Shown here piece by piece: positions 6,117-58,081 of a DNA stretch of 64,000 bases. The position numbers and the translations under genes are program-made. Position 1 is the stretch's first letter, and every line of letters starts with the position of its first letter. This stretch comes from a virus: positions 1-64,000 of the IMG/VR virus record IMGVR_UViG_3300034117_002447; one strand, written 5' to 3'. The notes under the pieces are model-generated. The model worked only from the letters and a program-made list of their open reading frames with translations. It made no database searches and was not told the origin of the DNA.

Positions 6117-6422
6117 TTATCCTATTTCTTTTTCGCCTTGGAATTCTTTTCCGCGGTTGGATTTTTTCTTAGTTGGATCAACTGGCTTGTAATTTGCCCA
6201 AATCTCATTATAGATTCGGCATGAAGCTCCCATGAAATTGACAATCCCTACGAATTTCTTACGATCTTCGCCCTTCATACGTGAAATTTTCTTTCCGATG
6301 CTACGTGCATCATCTAAATCCAATTCCTCGTCGTCTGATTTTCCAACTAAATCCTTTATAGAATTCTCTTGAATTACGAACTGTTTAAATGGAGTTAGTC
6401 TGTTTTTATTTTTATCTGACAT
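6117..6422 (-). CDS. Small putative internal head protein with N-terminal capsid-targeting-like motif
   Basis: 101 residues. Near the N-terminus RLTPFKQFVIQEN fits the T4 internal-protein capsid-targeting pattern, with IQE as a possible gp21-type (L/I)-x-E cut site. The remainder is small, mixed-charge and helical (DDARSIGKKISRMKGEDRKKF), ending basic. It lies between a tail-associated gene and a repeat protein that carries the same motif. Packaging in the capsid is inferred from the motif only. Confidence 0.7.
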   Translation of the reverse strand: MSDKNKNRLTPFKQFVIQENSIKDLVGKSDDEELDLDDARSIGKKISRMKGEDRKKFVGIVNFMGASCRIYNEIWANYKPVDPTKKKSNRGKEFQGEKEIG

Positions 6423-6442: not shown

Positions 6443-6808
6443 TTACTTAGGCATTTTAGCCATGCTAGGCTCAACTTTCTTATTAATAGCATTTCCTTTA
6501 ATAACGATCTTCGCCATTTTAGAATCTACTACTTTATTAGAAGCCGTACCTTTGCTAGTAGGCAATTTAGAAGTTTTAGTATCAACTGTTTTTGTACTAG
6601 TTGTACCTTTACCTTTAGGAAGACTTGCCATTTCAGGTTTAACAGTTTTATTTGAGTTAGAACCTTTACCTTTAGGAAGTTCTTTCATCTCAGCATTAAC
6701 TGACTTGTTAGATTTAGAACCTTTACCCTTAGGAAGATCTGCCATTTCCTGGTTGATCGCTTTTTTCTCTAAAAGAAATTGTGCGTAATTTAAAACGGTG
6801 TTGCTCAT
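6443..6808 (-). CDS. Lys-rich repeat protein with capsid-targeting-like motif
   Basis: 121 residues. The N-terminus VLNYAQFLLEKK matches the capsid-targeting pattern; LLE would be the cut site. The rest is about five 19-residue repeats of the form EM-x-x-LPKGKG-x-x-SNK-x-V-x-x, very rich in Lys and Ser. A small, basic, repetitive protein delivered to the head would resemble the DNA-associated internal proteins of T4 (inference). A late-promoter-like element lies 35 nt upstream and a terminator separates it from gp23, so it is expressed on its own. Confidence 0.8.
   Translation of the reverse strand: MSNTVLNYAQFLLEKKAINQEMADLPKGKGSKSNKSVNAEMKELPKGKGSNSNKTVKPEMASLPKGKGTTSTKTVDTKTSKLPTSKGTASNKVVDSKMAKIVIKGNAINKKVEPSMAKMPK
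6490..6759 (-). repeat. Tandem repeats of 57 nt (19 codons) inside the basic internal-protein gene
   Basis: Four to five in-frame copies encode LPKGKG-type units; approximate boundaries. The copies diverge towards the 3' end (LPTSKG, then IVIKGN), suggesting old duplication. Confidence 0.7.
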
Positions 6809-6927: not shown

Positions 6928-8595
6928 TTAGTAAGATGCAGAAGGACGAGTAGAACCAGTCAATACACCTAGACCTGTTACGTTCAAGGTAATGTATTGA
7001 GTTTCTGGGTGCCATCCAGCTTCTGTAATAGCATAACGAGACTTCATACCAATTTTCGGAGAGAAAGTTCCCTCTGCGATTGTTTGAAGAGACTCTGCCA
7101 TGATATATGGAAGGAATTTAACACCTGGCTCTTCATCAGCGCCTTTACGACCGATATGGATACGATCGTCGCTGAATTTCAAGTTAGGATCTACGTACAC
7201 AGTTAAACCGTGAACTTTACCTGCAGGGTACAATTGACCAGCAGCAGATGGAAGATCGTTATTGAAAGGAGCGAACGAGTAACCAGCTACGTCTGCTAAA
7301 GCAGAAGCAACACGACCGTTAGTAACGATGTAAGTACCTGCACCGAAACGACCTCTATGATAAATCAAGTTAGCCATTTCAAGGATTTTAGTTACAACAC
7401 GACGTTGTAAAGTTGAGATGTTCTCGAAACCAGTTGAACCTACAGTTAAGTCCAAAGTAGTGATTCCTGCACCTTCAACTGCTGCGATAGCAGTGTTGTG
7501 AACAGAACCTAATTTGAATACACGGTCAACTAATTTTTTGTTGATTGATTGAGCAAGCTCGTTAACTGCTACGTTCTCTAACATAGAGATTACGTCGAAA
7601 TTCCAAACTCGGTTAAGATCTTGGATTTGCTCAACAGTTGCAGAGATAGCAACTTGGTCACCTTTAGCCTCAATGAATTTCGTAAACATACGAAGACCCA
7701 TTTGACGGAATTTAGAAACCTCAGCAACTTCTCTCTTCATTCCTTCGAATGGTAATTGAGAACCTGTGTCGCCTAAGAAAGGACCATCAAATGCAGTTGT
7801 TGCATAATCATCATCACTTACTGAAGTAAATCCAGAGATGTGGTTTTCTAAAGCAGATACCAAAGTAACTGTGTTAGCTGCGAATGCAGTTGTACCTAAA
7901 CCATCGTAAGGATCGCCTGTAGCACCAGTTCCAGAACCGATTGCTGTAGCACTAATTGATGCAAGGAAGTCAGCAACAGTAGTAGCACCATCAGTACCAG
8001 TTACTACTTTAAGGATTGGTTGACCATCAACACGTGATTTTCCAACCAATTGGAATTTCCAATCTGCGTTAGTACCGTCGATGAATTTACCAACTGCGAT
8101 AGATGCGCTGATTGAAGGAACTTTAACCATGAATGGCTCGTATGCTTTATCAGTGTTACCACCTTGGTATACGTAATCCAAATAAGGTAAGAAACCTACT
8201 GGAGAATCCATAGGAACTACACCAACTAGGTCGAAACCGATAGTTTTAGCAGCTACTTGGATAGCTACCGGTAAAAGGCTTGGGAATTTATCACCAGAAC
8301 CTGATGCAGAAGCACCGTAACCGTTTTTTACACCAGCAGATGAGAATGGAGTCATTGAGCTAGTTGGAGCAGAGATTGCACCGATTGAAGAGATAGAACC
8401 TGGTTGTTGTAAGAACAATCCTGGAGCTACCGCTGATTCATTGATTGAACCTGCGTTATCGAAAATTGCGTGGTTGTGAGCGTAGTCTACTAACCAAGGG
8501 CGAGCTTTTACGTCTGCACCGTAACCTTCTAAAACTGGAGTCCAAGTTTCGTTAATTGAAGCGTCGTTCAATTTTTTGAAAATTTTAGTTGCCAT
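6928..8595 (-). CDS. 23: Major capsid protein precursor, gp23-like
   Basis: 555 residues (T4 gp23 is 521). The fold-typical blocks are DLVGVVPMDSPVGFLPYLDYVY, the central MKREVAEVSKFRQMGLRMFTK region and the C-terminal FLPYIMAESLQTIAEGTFSPKIGMKSRYAI. A prohead-protease site of the (L/I)-x-E type occurs at INE (51-53), and another at INE (14-16), so an N-terminal propeptide of about 53 residues is plausible. The gene lies directly downstream of the protease-scaffold fusion, the T4 gene order 21/22/23 in condensed form, and is followed by a strong terminator. Confidence 0.92.
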   Translation of the reverse strand: MATKIFKKLNDASINETWTPVLEGYGADVKARPWLVDYAHNHAIFDNAGSINESAVAPGLFLQQPGSISSIGAISAPTSSMTPFSSAGVKNGYGASASGSGDKFPSLLPVAIQVAAKTIGFDLVGVVPMDSPVGFLPYLDYVYQGGNTDKAYEPFMVKVPSISASIAVGKFIDGTNADWKFQLVGKSRVDGQPILKVVTGTDGATTVADFLASISATAIGSGTGATGDPYDGLGTTAFAANTVTLVSALENHISGFTSVSDDDYATTAFDGPFLGDTGSQLPFEGMKREVAEVSKFRQMGLRMFTKFIEAKGDQVAISATVEQIQDLNRVWNFDVISMLENVAVNELAQSINKKLVDRVFKLGSVHNTAIAAVEGAGITTLDLTVGSTGFENISTLQRRVVTKILEMANLIYHRGRFGAGTYIVTNGRVASALADVAGYSFAPFNNDLPSAAGQLYPAGKVHGLTVYVDPNLKFSDDRIHIGRKGADEEPGVKFLPYIMAESLQTIAEGTFSPKIGMKSRYAITEAGWHPETQYITLNVTGLGVLTGSTRPSASY

Positions 8596-8612: not shown

Positions 8613-10634
8613 TTAGTTTTGTGCTTTTCTTTTAAGCATGTCTATGTAAGTATTTGAATAGCCTCTTAAGCTTTCGTGTACTTGATTTAACGACACATAA
8701 CCTTCTTTACCTTGGCTTTCGTTAATAGTGTTATTATTTATAATAGTCTCTGTTGCAATTCTTTCATTAATTCCTCTGAAGTCACGAGAATCCCAGAAAG
8801 ATTTAACTTGATATGCTGAATTAAGAACTAGTGTGTTTGCTTGAGCAGCAACCCAATTTCTTTCTCCTTCAGTCATACTTTCAAATACATTTTTGTAAGC
8901 AGCTGGCATAAATTTAATATAGTTAGGAGTGTTTTCAACCTGTTTGTTAAGAACTGCCTCCATGATATTAACTACCTCTTCTTCATTAAAGTAGATTGCT
9001 CCTCTAAGAGTTTCAACGATTGCGGTTTTAGTAGGTTGATCTAACTTGTAAAATGCTTGTTTACGGCCTTCGCTTAACAATTTTAAGAAAGGATATTTAC
9101 CTTCTAGAACTGCGTTTGCTGAATTAGATTTAATATGTGTTAAGATACCGTCTACTGCACCAACTAGGTCATCTACTGTAGAAGTTTCACTGATTTCAAA
9201 TTCAACACCTTCGTTTAATTTCTTAACTTCTCCAAGTAGAGAACGAGTCTTAGCTGTTGCTCCTGGAAGAACTTTTTCATTAAGTGATTCTGCGATATAC
9301 TCAGAGTATTTAATACCTTTATTTAAGTTTTCACCTAAGTAATCAGAATATTTAATAGCGGCTTCTAAGTTTTCAGCGATATAGTTAGAATAGTGGATTC
9401 CTTTTTCTGCATTTTCTCCAACGTATTCAGCGTATTGAATTCCTCTATCAACGTTCTCAGCTAAGTAATTAGTGTATTCGATAGTTTTTTCAACGTTTTC
9501 TGCAACGTATTCAGAGTAGTTAATGTTTTGGTTAACTTTTTCTCCTAAGTATTCAGAATACTGGATATTCTTTTCAACTTTTTCTCCTAAGTAGTCAGAA
9601 TAGTCAATAACATTATTAACTTTTTCTGCAACGTGCTCAGTGTAGTTGATACCTTTTCCTAACATTGCTGATAGGTAGTTAGAATATTCAACTAACTGCT
9701 CCATTTCACCTGCTAGGTAATTAACGTATTCTACCATTTTAGCAACTACTGGAGATTCACCAGCTGTGCTTTCGCTGATCTGCTTAAGACCTTTATTGTT
9801 TTTTGAAATACTCTCTTGTAAAGTTGAGAATTTCTTCTTAACCAATTCAGAGTATTGGTTCATTTCATCTTTTGTTACAAACTCATTAGCCATTTGCTGT
9901 GTATTATTTTGTTGGGTTGGAATTTCAGAATTATTTATTTTATAAATCTTTACAGAATCTGCAAAGTTGAAATTTTCAGAAATATCTGTTAGTTTGCTAG
10001 TTATAGCAGTTGTCTTTAGTGTATCCAATGATTCAAAGATAGAAGCAAAGTTACCTTGTAAACTTTCAGACACTTGACTTAATGATGCTTGAGAGAAACC
10101 AGGTTCTGCTACTAAATCATAAGTAAAGATTTTATGCAACTTAACTTTTCCGTTTTCAGAAACGTTACCTGCTGCTCTTGATGAAACTGCTGTTGTGCAA
10201 CCAGCTTCAACTAAGGTCTTAGCGATCTTTCCACAAGGAGTATCAAGAAGACGAAGTCTAATCTTTACGCTATTTGAACCTTCATCGTAAGTAAGTCCTT
10301 CTACTACGTGAGATACGTTAGCTAAAGAAACATCAAATTTTTGTGGGTGATCAAGTTCACCAAAGAGTCTGCGCTCTTCGATCTTCTTTTTTAGGTATTC
10401 TAGATGAGGTAAATACTCCTGTTTTTCGTAAACTCGATTATTCTCGTTCATTACTCCAAAAACAGCGGCAGTACCTTCAAGGATAATGTCGTTATCTTCT
10501 CTAGTTACAGTGACAGCTTCGTTGATTTTCTCAATAATGAATACTGAGTTGTCAGGAACAGATGTCTTGTTCAAACTTTGTATTTTAGGATTAGCCAATT
10601 GTATCAGACTTTTTTGATTATTTATACGCGCCAC
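8613..10634 (-). CDS. 21: Prohead protease fused to scaffold-like repeat domain (gp21-gp22-like)
   Basis: 673 residues. Residues 50-195 match T4 gp21: VFGVMNENNRVY, FGELDHP with the catalytic His near 96, and AVSSRAAG with the catalytic Ser near 151-152. A Gln/Asn linker (about 240-247) leads to a long helical region whose core (303-455) is eleven exact 14-residue repeats, Y-x-x-Y-h-(A/G)-E-x-h-x-x-x-I-x. The end is a helical C-terminal domain. T4 encodes protease and scaffold separately; here they are one frame. The start is GTG at 10634. A possible internal ATG at 9893 (MANEFVTK) could give a scaffold-only product. Most repeats contain L/I/V-x-E, the cut site type of this protease family. 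Confidence 0.85.
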   Translation of the reverse strand: MARINNQKSLIQLANPKIQSLNKTSVPDNSVFIIEKINEAVTVTREDNDIILEGTAAVFGVMNENNRVYEKQEYLPHLEYLKKKIEERRLFGELDHPQKFDVSLANVSHVVEGLTYDEGSNSVKIRLRLLDTPCGKIAKTLVEAGCTTAVSSRAAGNVSENGKVKLHKIFTYDLVAEPGFSQASLSQVSESLQGNFASIFESLDTLKTTAITSKLTDISENFNFADSVKIYKINNSEIPTQQNNTQQMANEFVTKDEMNQYSELVKKKFSTLQESISKNNKGLKQISESTAGESPVVAKMVEYVNYLAGEMEQLVEYSNYLSAMLGKGINYTEHVAEKVNNVIDYSDYLGEKVEKNIQYSEYLGEKVNQNINYSEYVAENVEKTIEYTNYLAENVDRGIQYAEYVGENAEKGIHYSNYIAENLEAAIKYSDYLGENLNKGIKYSEYIAESLNEKVLPGATAKTRSLLGEVKKLNEGVEFEISETSTVDDLVGAVDGILTHIKSNSANAVLEGKYPFLKLLSEGRKQAFYKLDQPTKTAIVETLRGAIYFNEEEVVNIMEAVLNKQVENTPNYIKFMPAAYKNVFESMTEGERNWVAAQANTLVLNSAYQVKSFWDSRDFRGINERIATETIINNNTINESQGKEGYVSLNQVHESLRGYSNTYIDMLKRKAQN
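9270..9728 (-). repeat. Eleven in-frame 42-nt repeats (14 aa) in the scaffold domain
   Basis: Each unit encodes two heptads starting with Tyr, for example YSEYLGEKVNQNIN and YTNYLAENVDRGIQ. The phase is unbroken for 153 residues. The first two units are the most divergent and one carries YLSAML instead of YLAEN. Confidence 0.9.
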
Positions 10635-10662: not shown

Positions 10663-10672
10663 TTATTTATTA
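10663..10672 (-). promoter_or_regulatory. T4-late-promoter-like element before the protease-scaffold gene
   Basis: TAATAAATAA on the minus strand, overlapping the DnaJ stop and 28 nt before the GTG. A second copy, TATAAATAA, lies at 10618-10626 inside the first codons, so the true start might be further downstream. Confidence 0.55.
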
Positions 10673-11568
10673 ATGCTAATCAGTAAGTCTTTGAATTCCT
10701 TTAACTTTTCTTCACTTAATTTCGAAAAGTCCGGACGGTTCACAATTATTTTAAAGAGATGGCTTCCTCTTTTACCAAATGCGGATACGAGTCCTTGGTT
10801 GGGTATCTTAACTACTAAGTCACTAAGTGAATCCCGGTTAAATGATTTTATTCTGTACTTTTTACCCAATGGGCTCTCTAAAATGACTTCTTCATTAAAC
10901 AAAATATCATATAGGCTGATCTCAATCTCTTGAACTAGATCACTATCTTCAAGTTCAAGGCCCAGCATATCAACATTTATGCGAATAATTAAATCGCCAA
11001 CCACATTGCCTGCCCGCTTTCTGTTAAAGTAATCGACTTCCTCAGTTTCCTGACTGGACCCTCCTCCTCTGACTTTTAGGACTAAAAAATATTTACCGTT
11101 TTCAAAAGAAATTGGATAAGGGTTAATTGCTAAATTAACTTCTGCTCTAATTTGCTTGTCTTCGAACTTTAATGCACCGTCTTTTGACTTTTTTGATATC
11201 GGGTATCCAATATCAAATACCGAACCGTCCATTAATTCTTTGATGGTTGCCCATTTGTCAACAGTAACCGTTAAGTGCCTAAAGTCTTGAGTTCTTGCTC
11301 CAGAGAAAGAGAAATCATGAAACGACCCAAAGAATTCCGAATTAAATGAAGAATTTTTAGGTGCCCGGGCAGAATCGTATACTCGTTTCTTATCTTCTGA
11401 TCCAATATGTTCATACGCCTCAGCTACTTCTTTGAATTTTTCTTCAAATTCTTTACTTCCACCATTTTTGTCAGGGTGGTATTTAGAAGCAAGCTTTCTG
11501 TAAGCTTTCTTTATTTCAGCAGAGTCCGCTGTTTCGGGAACTTCGAGAATTTTATAATAATTTTTCAA
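10663..11568 (-). CDS. dnaJ: DnaJ/CbpA-type co-chaperone
   Basis: 301 residues. An N-terminal J domain (1-65) carries HPD at 31-33 within KYHPDKNGG, the motif that stimulates DnaK ATPase. There is no cysteine-rich zinc finger, so it is of the CbpA (class B) type. The C-terminal substrate-binding region includes [20 protein letters not shown] and [20 protein letters not shown], typical beta-sandwich domains. It is immediately upstream of the prohead protease, so a role with host DnaK in capsid folding is plausible (inference). It diverges from the glycosyltransferase island on the other strand. Confidence 0.9.
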
Positions 11569-11660
11569 ACGGTAAACCTGTCTTTTTGTTTCTAGTATAA
11601 TACTAGAAATCGTTAGTTAGTTTACTTTCGATTAAATAACCTTATAAAAAATCAATTTAT

Positions 11661-14225
11661 GTGAAGCCCATTGCTTTTACCTATTACTCAAATGCAGTCT
11701 CCGATATTTTCTTAAAAAATGTGGAAACATTCCTCTACTATTCAGGAAAATACGACAGCCTAGTCATTTGCTCCGATATACCTTTGCCTAAAACCATAAT
11801 ATCGGCATTATGCGAAATTATTCAAGTGATTAAGATCTCCCCAAACGAGCAATCTATCTCGTTGAAGAAGAAATTTTCAAGTAATTCTAACCCAACTATA
11901 GTTAACCCTTTCATATTAACAGCACTTTCTTATTCAGAAGCATCGGATATTACTGTATTCGACCCCCATGTGTTTTTAATAAAGGATATAGACTTAACCA
12001 ATAATTCCAATCAATTTTTCTTTTCCCAGAACTCATTAATATCTACGAGCTTTTTTAAATTTAAGCCTTCTTCTGAGATTAGTCGGCTTGCTAATCAAAT
12101 TCTAATAAACCAGGATTATACTAACATATCAATAATCCAGGCCTTTAATTTCTTTATAACGAACTCACTAGCCTTTTCTGAAAAGTCGATACGGTCTGAT
12201 CTTTTTATCTTTACCAGACCTAGTGATGAAGTTGAATTAAAGGAAGATAAGATACTCGGCTTTGATTTTTTAAATTTAAGTAGGACTTCACATTTCAAGG
12301 AAATTTCCGGAATTAGAGATAATCATGTTGCCAAAAAGAAAAAGCAGCTACTTGCCTTTATCAAGAAAAAATACCAATACCTAGATCAGTCACTAGTTAC
12401 TGCTACTCAAAATAATGCAGCAGTTCCAATATCTTACGAAAACTTTAAAAAGTATTCAGACAAACTCACCAATACGGTACAGATCAATCTGATCTACACA
12501 AAACAGGTAGCTAATCACGCTAAGAATTTAGAAAAGACCCTAACCGAATTAGGGTTTATTGTAAAGTCTTCAATTAAATCTCCAGGTAGTGCTCTAAACC
12601 CAAATGACCCTAACTTGCATATCGTCATGTGCCCAAATGTATTCACGGATTTCCCAAAGAATTACATAGCCTACCAATTTGAACAAGCCCATTCAAGCTG
12701 GTTCACTAAAGATTACATACACAGGCTAAATTGTGCGATTGAAATATGGGATTATTCAGAATACAATATCAATTATTTCAAAGGAAAATTTGGAAGACCT
12801 CATATATTTGTACCAATCGGTCGAGTTGAACATGATGTTGATATAGTTAACCAAGCTAGAGATATAGATGTCCTGTTTTATGGAGAATACTCAGGCAGCA
12901 GTCGAAGAACTGAATTTCTAGATAGTATGAGAGAGCTTAGGTCCATCAAAGTAGTAGACGGATTTAGCGTACATAAGTTTGGATCAGATATCGTAGATAT
13001 TCTCAAGAGAACTAAAGTTGTACTAAATCACCACTACTACGATAATGGAAATCTTGAAGTAGTTAGAGTATATGAAGCCTTAAGCTACGGGTGTAAAGTC
13101 GTTTCCGAAGTTTCAGTTGATGATAATTACCACGATTTACCGATTTTAAGATATTCCAGTGTTACTGAAGCAGATCGGCTTCTAAAATTGGCACTAGCTG
13201 ATAATCAGGTTCGTGAATTTAACAAAAGTAATAAAGCTGTTATTAAATCAGCGATGAGTCGACTTGGTTTTAATATGCACAATCGAATTGCAGTATTTGC
13301 TCATTATGATGTCCTTAACCAGATCGACGATTATGTAGTTGACTATTTAACTAAACTTAGTAAATTTTGTGACAAAATAATATTTGTGTCTGACGGTAAC
13401 GTAAATCCTTCTGAGCTGGAAAAAATCTCTCATTTAATATCTGATAGTATATGTGGAAGGCACGGTGAATCAAACGATTTAGGTAGTTACAAGAGAGGTT
13501 TCAATTTAATAATTGAAAAGTACAAGTCTGACATTTCTAAAATTGATCAATTTCTTTTTGTTAATGATTCAGGTTATTGTGTGGGCGATCTAACTCCAGT
13601 CTTTGACACTATGACTGGTGCATCCGTTGATGCATGGGCACTATGTGATCATGCGCCCGACCCAAAACTAATAGAGGGCAAGTGCTATTTACAAAGTAAT
13701 TTTTTCTCAGTTAACCGAGCAGTATTTACGGCAAAACCGTTCTCTCAGTTTATGAACAGTATAACAGTTTCTCATAATAAATCAGAAATAGTTGACAAGT
13801 ATGAGCTAGGTTTATCTGAGATGTTAATTAAGAATGGTTATAGGACCGGTTGTTACATAAGCACAGTCAGTCTAGATGAGTACATTAGATCGAATGATAC
13901 TCAATTAACAACTGAGGTCCTTTCGCTACTTTCCGGAAATTATTCAGGCATAACTAGCGATATAATGTCAAGAATATTTCATTCAAAAATAGGAGGAGAC
14001 TATGTCTATTCTGATCATTTTTATACTCTACTAAAAATAGGATTTCCGTTAATTAAATGCTTAGCACTAGTTCCAAATCAGGAAACTGGCCCATATAATA
14101 AACTAATTGACTATTGGAAGCCGATCCTCATTTCTAAATTGGGATCAGCTCAAGTTAATCAAATGCTAACTCATATTTCTAGAATCGGTAAGACTCCGAA
14201 ATCACCTAACAAAAATATACGATAA
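11661..14225 (+). CDS. Large two-domain glycosyltransferase with C-terminal rhamnan-synthesis-F-like domain
   Basis: 854 residues, GTG start. The middle part (about 270-520) resembles a GT-B transferase: VMCPNVFTDFP, YQFEQAHSSWFTKDY, DVLFYGEYSGSSRR, and the nucleotide-sugar-binding-like EVVRVYEALSYGCKVVSE. The C-terminal 300 residues follow the RgpF pattern: IAVFAHYDVLNQIDDYVVDYL, GRHGESNDLGSYKRGF, FLFVNDSGYCVGDLTP, DAWALCDH, YLQSNFFSV. The first 250 residues are not recognised. It heads a four-gene plus-strand island inserted between minus-strand virion modules. The acceptor (capsid, tail, modified DNA or host glycan) is unknown. Confidence 0.8.
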   Translation: MKPIAFTYYSNAVSDIFLKNVETFLYYSGKYDSLVICSDIPLPKTIISALCEIIQVIKISPNEQSISLKKKFSSNSNPTIVNPFILTALSYSEASDITVFDPHVFLIKDIDLTNNSNQFFFSQNSLISTSFFKFKPSSEISRLANQILINQDYTNISIIQAFNFFITNSLAFSEKSIRSDLFIFTRPSDEVELKEDKILGFDFLNLSRTSHFKEISGIRDNHVAKKKKQLLAFIKKKYQYLDQSLVTATQNNAAVPISYENFKKYSDKLTNTVQINLIYTKQVANHAKNLEKTLTELGFIVKSSIKSPGSALNPNDPNLHIVMCPNVFTDFPKNYIAYQFEQAHSSWFTKDYIHRLNCAIEIWDYSEYNINYFKGKFGRPHIFVPIGRVEHDVDIVNQARDIDVLFYGEYSGSSRRTEFLDSMRELRSIKVVDGFSVHKFGSDIVDILKRTKVVLNHHYYDNGNLEVVRVYEALSYGCKVVSEVSVDDNYHDLPILRYSSVTEADRLLKLALADNQVREFNKSNKAVIKSAMSRLGFNMHNRIAVFAHYDVLNQIDDYVVDYLTKLSKFCDKIIFVSDGNVNPSELEKISHLISDSICGRHGESNDLGSYKRGFNLIIEKYKSDISKIDQFLFVNDSGYCVGDLTPVFDTMTGASVDAWALCDHAPDPKLIEGKCYLQSNFFSVNRAVFTAKPFSQFMNSITVSHNKSEIVDKYELGLSEMLIKNGYRTGCYISTVSLDEYIRSNDTQLTTEVLSLLSGNYSGITSDIMSRIFHSKIGGDYVYSDHFYTLLKIGFPLIKCLALVPNQETGPYNKLIDYWKPILISKLGSAQVNQMLTHISRIGKTPKSPNKNIR

Positions 14226-33577: not shown

Positions 33578-35128
33578 TTGTTAACCTTTAAATTATCAAA
33601 CGATCGACAATTTCTTGTACTTGTAAGCCATGACACAAAGGGCGAACTCAAAGATCTTCAATTCTATTTTAAAAAGAGGCAAAAAGGCTATCTTTTTAAT
33701 CGTCTATATAAACGAAAGTTATGGGACGGATACGACCATTTTGTTGTAGTCGATAAAGAAACCGGCGCTCACAAAATCGGAGTCGGCCTTTGGAAAGAAC
33801 TATTTAATTTCAGTAAGAAATTTGAGTATGAGGTTCATATCGAAGATTATGAGAAATTATTTAACTTAAATTTCACAAAGGATCAACTTGCAAAGTTTAC
33901 GTCAGTTATGCTGGATGGTTCAAACATTGAGGCTAGAGACTATCAATTAGAGGCAGTATTTCGTGCCTTAAAATACAAGTTCTGTTCTCTTGAACTTGCA
34001 ACATCTGCTGGTAAAACAATTATTTTCTTTTTATATTTAGCCTTTCTTAAGAGAAAGGGTATTCTCGCCGGAAATGGCAAAAAAGCCCTAATCGTAGTTC
34101 CTAGAGCTGGACTAGTTAGTCAAACTGCTGAAAAATTCACAGACGATTACAATACCGGTCTGATGAGCTTTAACGTAATGACGATCGGCGGAAAGAGTAA
34201 GTACACAGACAAAGCATTTGCTGAATCTGAGATAGTTATTTCAACTTACCAAAGTCTAATTAACAGACCTCCTGAATTCTTCAAGGAATTTAGCATTGTT
34301 TGTATCGATGAGTGTCACACAAGTAGAGGAAACTCTGTTCGGGATATTTTAATACAGTCAGTTAATGTCGAATACAAACTTGGACTTTCCGGAACAATTA
34401 AAATAGAAGAAGACTATTCGGATTTCTTCAGAATTCAAGAATTTCTTGGTCCATTAAGTATGACTCTATCCGCAAGTCACTTAATTGAGAATAACTACTC
34501 ACCTGATGTCTATATTAAAATGGTTTACTTAGAATATCCTAAAACTGAACCTTTTGTTGAGAAATACATGGCTCTGCGAGAAGAAGGAAAGTCCGGTAAA
34601 GAGATGTACGACTCTGAAAAAGCGTTCATTGTCTCTTACGAACCTAGAATTGACTTCATTTCTGCATTCGTTAAGAAACTTGAAGGAAATACTTTGATTC
34701 TATACATAAACGTTAAGGATCAGTACGGCCAGCGTATTTGTGATAAGATTAAGGAATGGAGAGAGCACGTTTATTACATAGACGGTGGTGTTGATAGCTC
34801 AGATCGTGATGAATATCAAAGAATTATGGAAGCTGGTCCTGGCGTTACACTAGTCGCATCATACGGAACTTTCTCTACTGGAATTGACTTAAAAAACGTT
34901 AATCACATTATCTTGGCCGAGAGTTACAAATCTGAGGTAACAATACGTCAATCTATTGGTAGGGGAATGCGTGGATTAAAAGGGAAAGTTAAGGTAACGA
35001 TTTACGATCTAATAGACGATCTTAATGGCTACATCGTTAAGCACGGTCATGCTAGAGAGAAAATTTATAAGAGTCAGAAATTCATTGTGTCAAAACACAA
35101 ATTTGACTTAAATAGATTCGTTAATTAA
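33578..35128 (+). CDS. uvsW: UvsW-like DNA/RNA helicase
   Basis: 516 residues, same architecture as T4 UvsW: an N-terminal double-stranded-nucleic-acid-binding domain with GYLFNRLYKRKLWDGYDHF, then a superfamily 2 core with LATSAGKTII (Walker A), IDECH (DEAH-type box), LGLSGTI (motif III) and, in the second RecA domain, VASYGTFSTGIDL and QSIGRGMRG (motif VI). It resolves R-loops and branched replication intermediates. The start is TTG at 33578 because the only nearby ATG (33574) is in another frame. Its 3' end overlaps the next convergent gene by 4 bp. Confidence 0.95.
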   Translation: MLTFKLSNDRQFLVLVSHDTKGELKDLQFYFKKRQKGYLFNRLYKRKLWDGYDHFVVVDKETGAHKIGVGLWKELFNFSKKFEYEVHIEDYEKLFNLNFTKDQLAKFTSVMLDGSNIEARDYQLEAVFRALKYKFCSLELATSAGKTIIFFLYLAFLKRKGILAGNGKKALIVVPRAGLVSQTAEKFTDDYNTGLMSFNVMTIGGKSKYTDKAFAESEIVISTYQSLINRPPEFFKEFSIVCIDECHTSRGNSVRDILIQSVNVEYKLGLSGTIKIEEDYSDFFRIQEFLGPLSMTLSASHLIENNYSPDVYIKMVYLEYPKTEPFVEKYMALREEGKSGKEMYDSEKAFIVSYEPRIDFISAFVKKLEGNTLILYINVKDQYGQRICDKIKEWREHVYYIDGGVDSSDRDEYQRIMEAGPGVTLVASYGTFSTGIDLKNVNHIILAESYKSEVTIRQSIGRGMRGLKGKVKVTIYDLIDDLNGYIVKHGHAREKIYKSQKFIVSKHKFDLNRFVN

Positions 35129-35925
35129 TAGTCTTCTGAATCAGAGGTCCATACGTAAAAATCAGCTAATGCAGTCTGTCTAAATCTATTAATATCATCT
35201 TTAATTGCATCAAGATCCCTTTCTATTTGATACAATTCATTCAGTTTTTCACGTAACCAGTTTTCAACTTCATCTCGAGCTTCAATAATCTCCTCTGCTT
35301 TAGCAGCAGTCTCTTCATCAATTATTCCAAACTCAATGAGCTCAGCAGTCTCTTCTGGATTTTCAATGATTTGTTTTAGTAACTGAATTGATCCAGCATT
35401 TGCGTCTGCTACTTCTTCTAAGTACATATCGAATTTATCTTCTAGAATTCTTTCCAAGTCAGAATGACTGTCCTCCATTGCTAGTAATAGCCAGCCTCCG
35501 CTTTGGCCCCCTACTCCAACTTTAGTTAACCAGTCATACGTATTCATATAGTCTTCTGAATTAACTTCGTAAGTCTCTTCCATGAATCTACCCCACTGAT
35601 CCCACATTGCTGATTCTAATGACGACTCATCTTCTTCAATTTCCTCAGCTGAATATCCTTTTAGTGCTGCCCATTTCTGTACATCTGGGTATGAGTGGAT
35701 TTTCATGTCTAGTGCATAATGGTCGTTTCTAAAATTTCGACTTTCTCTATTATACCAGTAAGTATCCTCCAATTCATTAACCTGTTTATCAAAGTCTTTA
35801 AGTAGATCCAATATAACAGAATCTTCTGTGAACTTATTTAGGTATTGAGCATAGTGATTTGCGTAATTCCAATCACCTCTTTCTAGAATAAATTGTGAAA
35901 ATGTATGGAGTCTTTTACCTAGCAT
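35125..35925 (-). CDS. Acidic protein with N-terminal capsid-targeting-like motif
   Basis: 266 residues, not recognised. The N-terminus KRLHTFSQFILERG fits the targeting pattern, with ILE as a candidate cut site. The rest is highly acidic and helical, with coiled-coil-like regions (KAEEIIEARDEVENWLREKL) and a WGRFMEETYEVNSEDYMNTYDW block. The start overlaps the preceding gene by 11 nt. Possibly an internal head or core protein (inference). Confidence 0.65.
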   Translation of the reverse strand: MLGKRLHTFSQFILERGDWNYANHYAQYLNKFTEDSVILDLLKDFDKQVNELEDTYWYNRESRNFRNDHYALDMKIHSYPDVQKWAALKGYSAEEIEEDESSLESAMWDQWGRFMEETYEVNSEDYMNTYDWLTKVGVGGQSGGWLLLAMEDSHSDLERILEDKFDMYLEEVADANAGSIQLLKQIIENPEETAELIEFGIIDEETAAKAEEIIEARDEVENWLREKLNELYQIERDLDAIKDDINRFRQTALADFYVWTSDSEDY

Positions 35926-56749: not shown

Positions 56750-58081
56750 TTATTCTTTTCTTTTTGCTAATTTTCTTTTAACTGCTTCCCGAGTCGACTC
56801 CATTTTCTTGGCATAACTTGGATTTTTTCGCTTGTTAAAATTAATTTGTTGATTTAGCGATCCAGTAATCTTTTGCATGTTACCACCTCTTGTTCTGATT
56901 AACCAATCCGCTAATTTATTAACTCCAAGGTCTCTGAATTTTCCATTTGCATCAGGTGCATCAGAATCGTGCCATTTAAGTTTTTTCTTTTCTGAAATTT
57001 CATCTTCATCAGCTTCATCATCTTCTTCGTCATCCCATCTGTGATACTGTTCCTCAATTGCCTTATTTAAAAGATCTTGAATTTTGTCGTACATTCCAAG
57101 CGAGTCTTCGAAACCAGTTACGGCACTCATAAAGAGTTCAATATCTTCAGCTATCTCATTAGACTTCATTGAAACTGGATCTCCATTTTGGAATAGGTCA
57201 GACCATTCATAGTCTTCAAGTTCAGCATCTTCGTAAAGTCCGATATCTTTTTGTGCGACACTAACTGACGACTTAACAGTTTCATCGATAAAGTTTATTC
57301 TGACTTCAAAATCAGTCCATACGTCTCTTTCTATATCCGGATATTCGGATGAATCTATTCCGTAATCATCTATAGATTGATTGAACTGGCCTGAAACAAT
57401 AACGATTTGATCTTCTGCAGTTGCTCCATTGACTAGTTCTGCGATTGCATCAGTGTCAACTCCACCAAAACCCATTGCTCTTAGTTCTGCAGCTTCTTCA
57501 TCAGATAAGTTCTCAATTATGAATTTTCCTTTTGTGTTAGGCTCATCAGAATCATGCCATTTAAGTTTCTTCTTTTCTGATACTTCTCCAAGACGTCTAT
57601 CGATTATGTCATTTACTATATCGACTGCCATGTCTACAAACATGCCTTCGTATTCAATTCGCTGCAAAATCTGAGTTAACTCATCAGCGATTCCTTGAGA
57701 ATCGTGATTTTCTGAATCCAGTTTAAAATCAACTTCATACGCATTACCTGCACCGTCAAAATCAATCCCAGAATTTAAGACTGCCACTTGTACTTTAGAT
57801 TTCATTGTCTCAAAGTCGAAATCAACATAGTACTGAACAAGGAACACGCTATCTAATTCAGCAGCCTCTGCTCTTTCTGGATCAAGTCCTAAATCATCAG
57901 CTGTCATATCAAATCCCAAATCGAAACCTAATGTCGTGTCGGTCTTCTCCTCTGGGTTGTATTCGGCCATTAATCCTTGAATTTCATCCGTGTCAATCTT
58001 TGAATTAAAACCTAATGCTGCTAATTCTTCAGCATCATCAGTATTTTCATTAACGAATTGTGTAAATCGTTTAAGTCTCAT
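56750..58081 (-). CDS. Duplicated-domain acidic protein with capsid-targeting-like N-terminus
   Basis: 443 residues. The N-terminus RLKRFTQFVNENTD is a clear targeting motif. The two halves are a duplicated domain: each starts with AAEL/EELAALGF, has an acidic beta region, and ends with EKKKLKWHDSD followed by GKF. The C-terminal 70 residues (NKLADWLIRTRGGNMQKITG, NFNKRKNPSYAKKMESTREA) form a basic domain. It resembles proteins seen in T4-like phages. Probably packaged by motif; function unknown. It starts on the neighbour's stop (ATGA-type overlap). Confidence 0.7.
   Translation of the reverse strand: MRLKRFTQFVNENTDDAEELAALGFNSKIDTDEIQGLMAEYNPEEKTDTTLGFDLGFDMTADDLGLDPERAEAAELDSVFLVQYYVDFDFETMKSKVQVAVLNSGIDFDGAGNAYEVDFKLDSENHDSQGIADELTQILQRIEYEGMFVDMAVDIVNDIIDRRLGEVSEKKKLKWHDSDEPNTKGKFIIENLSDEEAAELRAMGFGGVDTDAIAELVNGATAEDQIVIVSGQFNQSIDDYGIDSSEYPDIERDVWTDFEVRINFIDETVKSSVSVAQKDIGLYEDAELEDYEWSDLFQNGDPVSMKSNEIAEDIELFMSAVTGFEDSLGMYDKIQDLLNKAIEEQYHRWDDEEDDEADEDEISEKKKLKWHDSDAPDANGKFRDLGVNKLADWLIRTRGGNMQKITGSLNQQINFNKRKNPSYAKKMESTREAVKRKLAKRKE

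Follow-up and report, generated by a model that had tools for sequence, protein, structure and literature searches.

In the herpesvirus UL26/UL26.5, phage lambda C/Nu3 and phage P2 gpO systems, a protease and a scaffold are obtained from one reading frame, and in the cases of UL26 and lambda C the free scaffold arises by way of an internal start. In phage T4 the sorting of proteins into the prohead core has been called mysterious and the structure of the core itself described as unresolved; T4 gp21, the head protease, is also a precedent for N-terminal self-cleavage (PMC9958956). The motif cut by this protease is L/I-X-E (PMC9026906). The T4 proteins ipII and ipIII share the N-terminus MKTYQEFIAE/A (here and below a slash marks the cut or putative cut), in which residues 4 and 7 direct targeting and residues 8 and 10 direct processing, such that Asp at residue 10 stops processing, not targeting (PMC9026906, a review of Black's work). 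The proteins that T4 packages by means of such leaders are injected and inhibit type IV restriction (PMC12373910).

The window considered here (the whole stretch of viral DNA analysed, 64,000 nt) contains a gene in which a protease of the T4 type runs on into a long helical protein with a tandem array of 14-residue repeats. The fusion and the dense LxE sites are features already known from other phages. What is new is that the array matches the T4 capsid-targeting sequence, a point that, like the candidate internal start described below, was not part of the sequence-only reading of this DNA which the present analysis followed up.

The open frame, its protease domain and its starts

As the sequence-only reading had it, protease and repeats belong to one gene. 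The frame of 673 codons (Table 1) encodes an N-terminal protease domain and then, without an intervening stop, a long helical part that includes the repeat array and ends just before the major capsid protein (MCP) gene. The fused protein matches Pfam Peptidase_S77 (4.1e-9) and S80 (2.5e-6), both above the cut-off, and the 519-position profile phrog_207 matches the protease domain with E=1.7e-37. The catalytic residues H96, S151 and D173 are invariant among 46 aligned sequences, and the top fold match of the domain is the crystal structure of T4 gp21 (5jbl, Foldseek E=3e-9), with herpesvirus proteases turning up among the weaker matches. The protease half of the fusion, in other words, is well supported as a T4 gp21-type enzyme by profile, by catalytic His, Ser and Asp, and by fold. 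Cleavage of head proteins after Glu by this enzyme is putative, and is backed by a conserved hxE near the N-terminus of the MCP, which in the window clade is INE or LNE with S or A after it, and in other clades INE/N, MNE/N or LYE/N; at the level of sequence this site is of the same type as the (I/L/V)-x-E of the repeats.

Independent IMG/VR contigs carry the gene complete and with identical sequence, others carry it at 70-84% identity, and every complete copy among these contigs has 11 units; the fused repeat gene is therefore not an assembly artefact. Directly upstream lies the gene of a DnaJ-like protein with DnaJ and DnaJ_C domains.

We infer that the C-terminal part is the scaffold because nothing else lies between protease and MCP and because the fusion recurs in PTm1, pT24, MA9V-2 and Lak, such that its identity rests on synteny. 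It has the gp22-like traits of lying between these two genes, of being helical and of being rich in LxE, and its C-terminal helical domain is recognised in PTm1, pT24, Lak and MA9V-2 (1e-15 to 9e-10). A search for sequence homology of the fused C-terminus to T4 gp22 gave no significant match: the comparison returned E=0.007 with an eight-sequence set of biased composition, which is not counted as homology. Of the proposal that T4 genes 21 and 22 are fused here, then, the gp21 half stands, whereas the scaffold half is suggested by synteny and by the other fusions, not by similarity to gp22.

The annotated start of the gene, GTG at 10634, is probably wrong. At this position several close relatives lack a start codon, and in L022-L027 the stretch is interrupted by a stop; what the relatives conserve here is the octamer TATAAATA, the T4 late promoter consensus. 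The true start is likely the TTG at 10598, conserved in the relatives that lack the GTG (TTA-GTG in L022/L027). Elsewhere in the phage genome (G000), TATAAATA stands exactly 13 nt before the ATG of four genes (39597, 58678, 115528 and 132671), where it would act as a T4-type late promoter and leave only a very short leader.

In the window clade, silent-site conservation peaks at three places along the gene. Two coincide with TATAAATA, at 10626 and at 8742, the latter copy being a candidate promoter of the MCP gene that is present in most of the window clade and missing from L022-L027. The third covers codons 246-254, around an internal ATG whose Met248 is conserved in 18/18, 45/45 and 9/9 sequences of three clades; the element upstream of it, ATAAATAAT, a candidate internal late promoter, reads ATA-AAT-AAT (once ATA-AAT-AAC) in 18/18 unique relatives. 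In the giant relatives a silent-site peak is found about 45-55 nt before the internal ATG, at the place homologous to ATAAATAAT, and contains ATATAT, a hexamer which also occurs before the protease and capsid genes; a peak exactly on the internal ATG was looked for in these giants and not found (57th percentile). T4 genes 17 and 21 are likewise annotated with internal starts. It is likely, judging from the sequence, that free scaffold is also made from ATG 248, probably in excess of the protease.

Table 1. Positions of the features discussed, in window coordinates unless G000 is given
Feature	Position	Strand	Remark
Fused protease-scaffold gene	8613..10634	-	One frame, 673 codons counted from GTG 10634
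TATAAATA, T4-type late promoter	10619..10626	-	Within first codons of annotated frame
TTG, likelier start	10596..10598	-	aa 13 of annotated frame
I-N-E/A, putative N-terminal self-cleavage site	10518..10526	-	aa 37-39; hNE/A or hNE/G kept in window clade
Serine protease domain	10083..10514	-	aa 41-184; Pfam S77/S80, phrog_207, alignments, fold
V-S-E190/S, putative protease-scaffold release site	10065..10073	-	E190 invariant in 46 sequences
ATAAATAAT, candidate internal late promoter	9930..9938	-	Codons 233-235
Internal ATG, candidate free-scaffold start	9891..9893	-	Codon 248, MANEFVTK; predicted product 426 aa
Eleven head-to-tail 14-residue units	9267..9728	-	aa 303-456
All-helical C-terminal domain	8733..9176	-	aa 487-634; mostly pLDDT 62-84 from residue 510 on
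TATAAATA in 3' end of gene, candidate MCP promoter	8735..8742	-	147 nt before MCP start
Major capsid protein (Gp23)	6928..8595	-	Pfam Gp23 E=3e-41
I-N-E53/S of MCP, conserved putative maturation site	8437..8445	-	
Lys-rich 121-aa protein	6443..6808	-	N-terminal targeting-like NYAQFLLE/K; directly downstream of MCP gene
101-aa protein	6117..6422	-	
DnaJ-like protein	10663..11568	-	
Tagged genes (relaxed pattern)	G000: 6443-6808, 35125-35925, 56750-58081, 79678-80241, 80268-80819		
Tagged genes (relaxed pattern)	G000: 101769-102914, 104813-106249, 108703-109548, 109552-110910, 110897-111121		
Tagged genes (relaxed pattern)	G000: 133930-135183, 135844-137463, 141570-141758, 141779-142240, 142292-143089		
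Tagged genes (relaxed pattern)	G000: 158422-159012, 162568-163038, 255194-255919, 259092-259664		

The 14-residue repeat array

The eleven repeats counted previously are borne out by the lag-14 self-similarity of the fused protein (326, against a shuffle maximum of 33) and, at the DNA level, by nine 42-nt copies spaced exactly 42 nt. Their consensus is Y-[ST]-[EN]-Y-[LVI]-[AG]-E-[NK]-[VL]-x-x-x-I-x. The accompanying claim that each repeat bears an (L/I/V)-x-E tripeptide holds in part: in units 3-11 (9/11) residues 5-7 read (L/I/V)-(A/G)-E in register, unit 1 (YVNYLAGEMEQLVE) has an LVE shifted to residues 12-14, and unit 2 (YSNYLSAMLGKGIN) has no such site.

In the P0002 clade, position 7 is Glu in >99% of the 599 units; the share is 96% in the P0003 clade and 74% in the window clade, where the first two units lack this Glu. 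Asp hardly ever takes the place of Glu, whereas the acids at positions 3 and 10 vary: Glu/Asp exchange at position 7 as against position 10 occurs in 20/2310 versus 162/511 pairs in the 11-unit set of P0002, and in 44/1194 versus 105/677 pairs in the window clade. The two tyrosines, Y1 and Y4, are conserved as strongly as the Glu, and more strongly in the window clade.

It was suggested in the sequence-only reading that the activated protease chops the scaffold at regular intervals and so clears it. Such self-clearance is plausible and compatible with the data, and is not unique to this phage. It could be the whole purpose of the array, in which case the repeats would serve to set protease sites at 14-residue intervals and the aromatic residues would merely keep the helix. 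The near-invariance of the position-7 Glu in the giants and its reluctance to be exchanged for Asp fit this well, as do the MCP site of the same type and the 14-residue steps of hxE that run on upstream of the array (residues 274, 288, 302 and 316). Set against this, cutting alone leaves the conservation of Y1 and Y4 unexplained, two units in the window have no site in register, and T4 gp22 has an equal density of sites without any 14-residue repeat. We regard clearance as the sole role of the repeats as unlikely. The comparison with T4 also agrees with the earlier remark that its scaffold lacks such regular spacing. For [LIV]xE the excess is z=4.8 here, comparable with T4 gp22 (4.0), 121Q (6.4), PTm1 (5.8) and pT24 (5.0), as against z = 0.2-1.5 in T4 gp18, gp20 and gp23; since this excess is a general trait of these scaffolds, the site density here is ordinary, and the distinctive feature is the fixed 14-residue spacing of the sites, not their number.

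The hydrophobic period of the repeats is 3.5 residues, with position 7 on the polar face, off the hydrophobic stripe, and the best AlphaFold2 model has the repeats as one continuous helix of about 160 residues; this confident helix came from 1/5 models, the remaining four scoring about 31-36. In the full-length model the packing of the repeats was not resolved (pLDDT 30-40). The period and the single helix are what would be expected were the 14-mer simply an amphipathic two-heptad unit of a rod or coiled coil, the LxE being a by-product of the helix's acidity that is left uncut within the repeats, and the unrelated 16-residue repeat in the scaffold of PTm1 may be counted on the same side. Yet a purely structural role does not account for the residue on the polar face being the most conserved in the P0002 clade, with Asp hardly replacing it, nor for its differing in this from the acids at positions 3 and 10. 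This explanation, too, we consider improbable.

Scans of IMG/VR turned up 38 loci that are close to the window gene, together with 80, 16 and 22 that are near the phages LR756502 (642 kb), LR756501 (735 kb) and LR756500 (462 kb), respectively. Nearly all complete proteins of the window, LR756502 and LR756501 clades, jumbo phages of up to 735 kb, have 10-13 regular units, and in the LR756500 clade the array is degenerate with the 14-residue lag still visible. Within the annotated phage collection the array was found only in six uncultured huge-phage records. The fusion of protease and scaffold without the array is present in PTm1, pT24, MA9V-2 and Lak, and in PAU the two remain separate; the fusion is thus an arrangement already on record, and it is the array that marks this lineage. 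A literature search, in which few subscription journals were covered, found no earlier description of a protease-scaffold fusion with repeats. Assignment to the bS21 phage clade (PMC9723584) was set aside, the genome record having no S21. LR756501 (W02) has, in addition, another short frame that is protease-like, as well as an isolated repeat-like stretch (11437-11781 and 620138-620266).

A tandem rod with a defined number of units would be a natural ruler, with the number of repeats setting the length of the core and hence the size of the capsid, and the head shape of T4 is held to be set by its core (PMC3012670). Repeat number does not, however, follow genome size: 10-13 units are found at about 270, 640 and 735 kb, and only degenerate units at 462 kb. 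A role as a ruler of head size is accordingly very improbable, and repeat number as a ruler of genome size was rejected.

Likeness to capsid-targeting sequences

When aligned on the Glu, residues Y4, F7, I8 and E10 of the T4 tag correspond to repeat positions 1, 4, 5 and 7 (Y, Y, I/L/V and E). The core of the repeat, Y-x-E-Y-(I/L/V)-(A/G)-E, thereby fits the T4 capsid-targeting sequence in the pattern aromatic-x-x-aromatic-(I/L/V)-x-E, with Glu and almost never Asp at the last place. This match was spotted post hoc, and, given 14 registers, a random 14-mer repeat would fit in about 0.4% of cases (internal rate). A capsid-targeting sequence proper stands N-terminally in the protein that is packaged; since the repeats are internal and in tandem they are targeting-like and not targeting sequences as such.

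The N-terminal location is instead found in other proteins of the same phage. With the pattern [YFW]xx[YFW][ILVM]xE within residues 2-26, and with gene calls from a simple greedy ORF picker instead of a trained gene finder, 19/351 other genes are tagged, as against 1.1 +/- 1.06 with shuffled N-termini (2000 trials, never >6); the tags include MKLKRFTQFVNE/A, MQHIKLFEQFIAE/F and MKIKAFSEFLAE/S. In the 642-kb relative the count is 33/1022 genes, as against 4.3 +/- 2.0 expected. Moreover, when internal 7-mers are ranked with a matrix trained only on N-terminal tags, the repeats that have the Glu come within the top 0.04-0.4% for the window phage and the array units within the top 0.02-0.5% for the giant, and the fused gene holds more sites of this matrix than any other gene. 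There is nonetheless a systematic difference, in that the tags mostly have F or W as their second aromatic residue and N just ahead of the Glu, as against Y or H and A or G in the repeats. The resemblance of the repeats to the phage's own tags, read from the sequences, is the point that deserves a test.

One case is the Lys-rich protein encoded next to the MCP, in which the tag is present in all relatives seen (NYFEYIAE/K, SYEEYLFE/K and NYNEFLLE/K among orthologues), the form NYFEYIAE/K of L024 and L028 being the repeat motif itself. This protein also has repeats of about 19 residues (LPKGKG) and is a candidate DNA-binding internal head protein. Relatives of the neighbouring 101-aa protein carry FSSYIQE/N or FESYMYE/A near the N-terminus, such that it, too, is possibly a tagged head protein. 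The products of the tagged genes of G000 are candidate injected head proteins; among them are a phage lysozyme and a NUDIX protein, and others weakly match a nucleotidyltransferase, an M78 peptidase or a HAD hydrolase.

The reading that we prefer, and to which we give an even chance, is that of a protease-scaffold which processes itself and whose rod strings together helical modules, each of them cleavable and similar to a targeting tag. The gp21-type serine protease would be joined to a long helical core protein, the repeats of which would make up a rod some 160 residues (about 24 nm) long and help to build the prohead core. The aromatic half of each module would mediate association within the core, separate internal proteins with a single N-terminal tag being recruited by the same kind of contact, and the (I/L/V)-x-E half would be the protease site. 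At maturation the protease may free itself, by N-terminal self-cleavage at INE39 and release at the invariant E190, and would cut the MCP at INE53; the rod would be severed module by module at position 7, so clearing the core and releasing the tagged cargo. It is possible, if less probable than the foregoing, that the rod is in effect a polymer of the phage's own tag, in which case tagged proteins would enter the prohead core because their single N-terminal tag packs like an extra repeat unit, and the same (I/L/V)-x-E cut would free both. Were this true, the recognition of T4-type targeting sequences would be accounted for.

A scaffold with tandem copies of a tag-like motif offers, at all events, a concrete and testable model for both recognition and release. 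The motif also names 19 proteins in this phage, and 33 in the 642-kb relative, as candidate head-internal and possibly injected proteins.

Comparison with known systems

The UL26/UL26.5, C/Nu3 and gpO systems have different scaffold sequences from that of the present locus, where, moreover, the internal product is putative. Other jumbo phages with the fusion are Tenacibaculum PTm1 and pT24, Chryseobacterium MA9V-2 and Prevotella Lak, in which the domains stand in the same order and the C-terminal helical domain is related, and which differ in having no 14-residue repeat. PTm1 has a 16-residue repeat of its own, independent of the present one and with LSE sites, in the scaffold part of its fused gene (L050, 3998-5692).

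T4 gp21 (MEROPS S77; 5jbl) is alike in fold, in its His-Ser-Asp residues, in its place before the MCP gene and in its (L/I)-x-E-type sites, but in T4 it is a separate protein of 212 aa, whereas here the protease runs on into the scaffold. T4 gp22, the scaffold that gp21 cleaves to peptides, similarly lies between protease and MCP and has 20 [LIV]xE in 269 aa; unlike the present scaffold it has no 14-residue repeat, and a scan of gp22 for the targeting-like motif found none. The tag of T4 ipII and ipIII, lastly, agrees with the repeats in spacing and in residue class at four positions. The repeats depart from it in their second aromatic, which is Y, in having A or G before the Glu and N or K after it, and in arrangement, the one N-terminal copy of T4 being represented here by tandem, internal modules.
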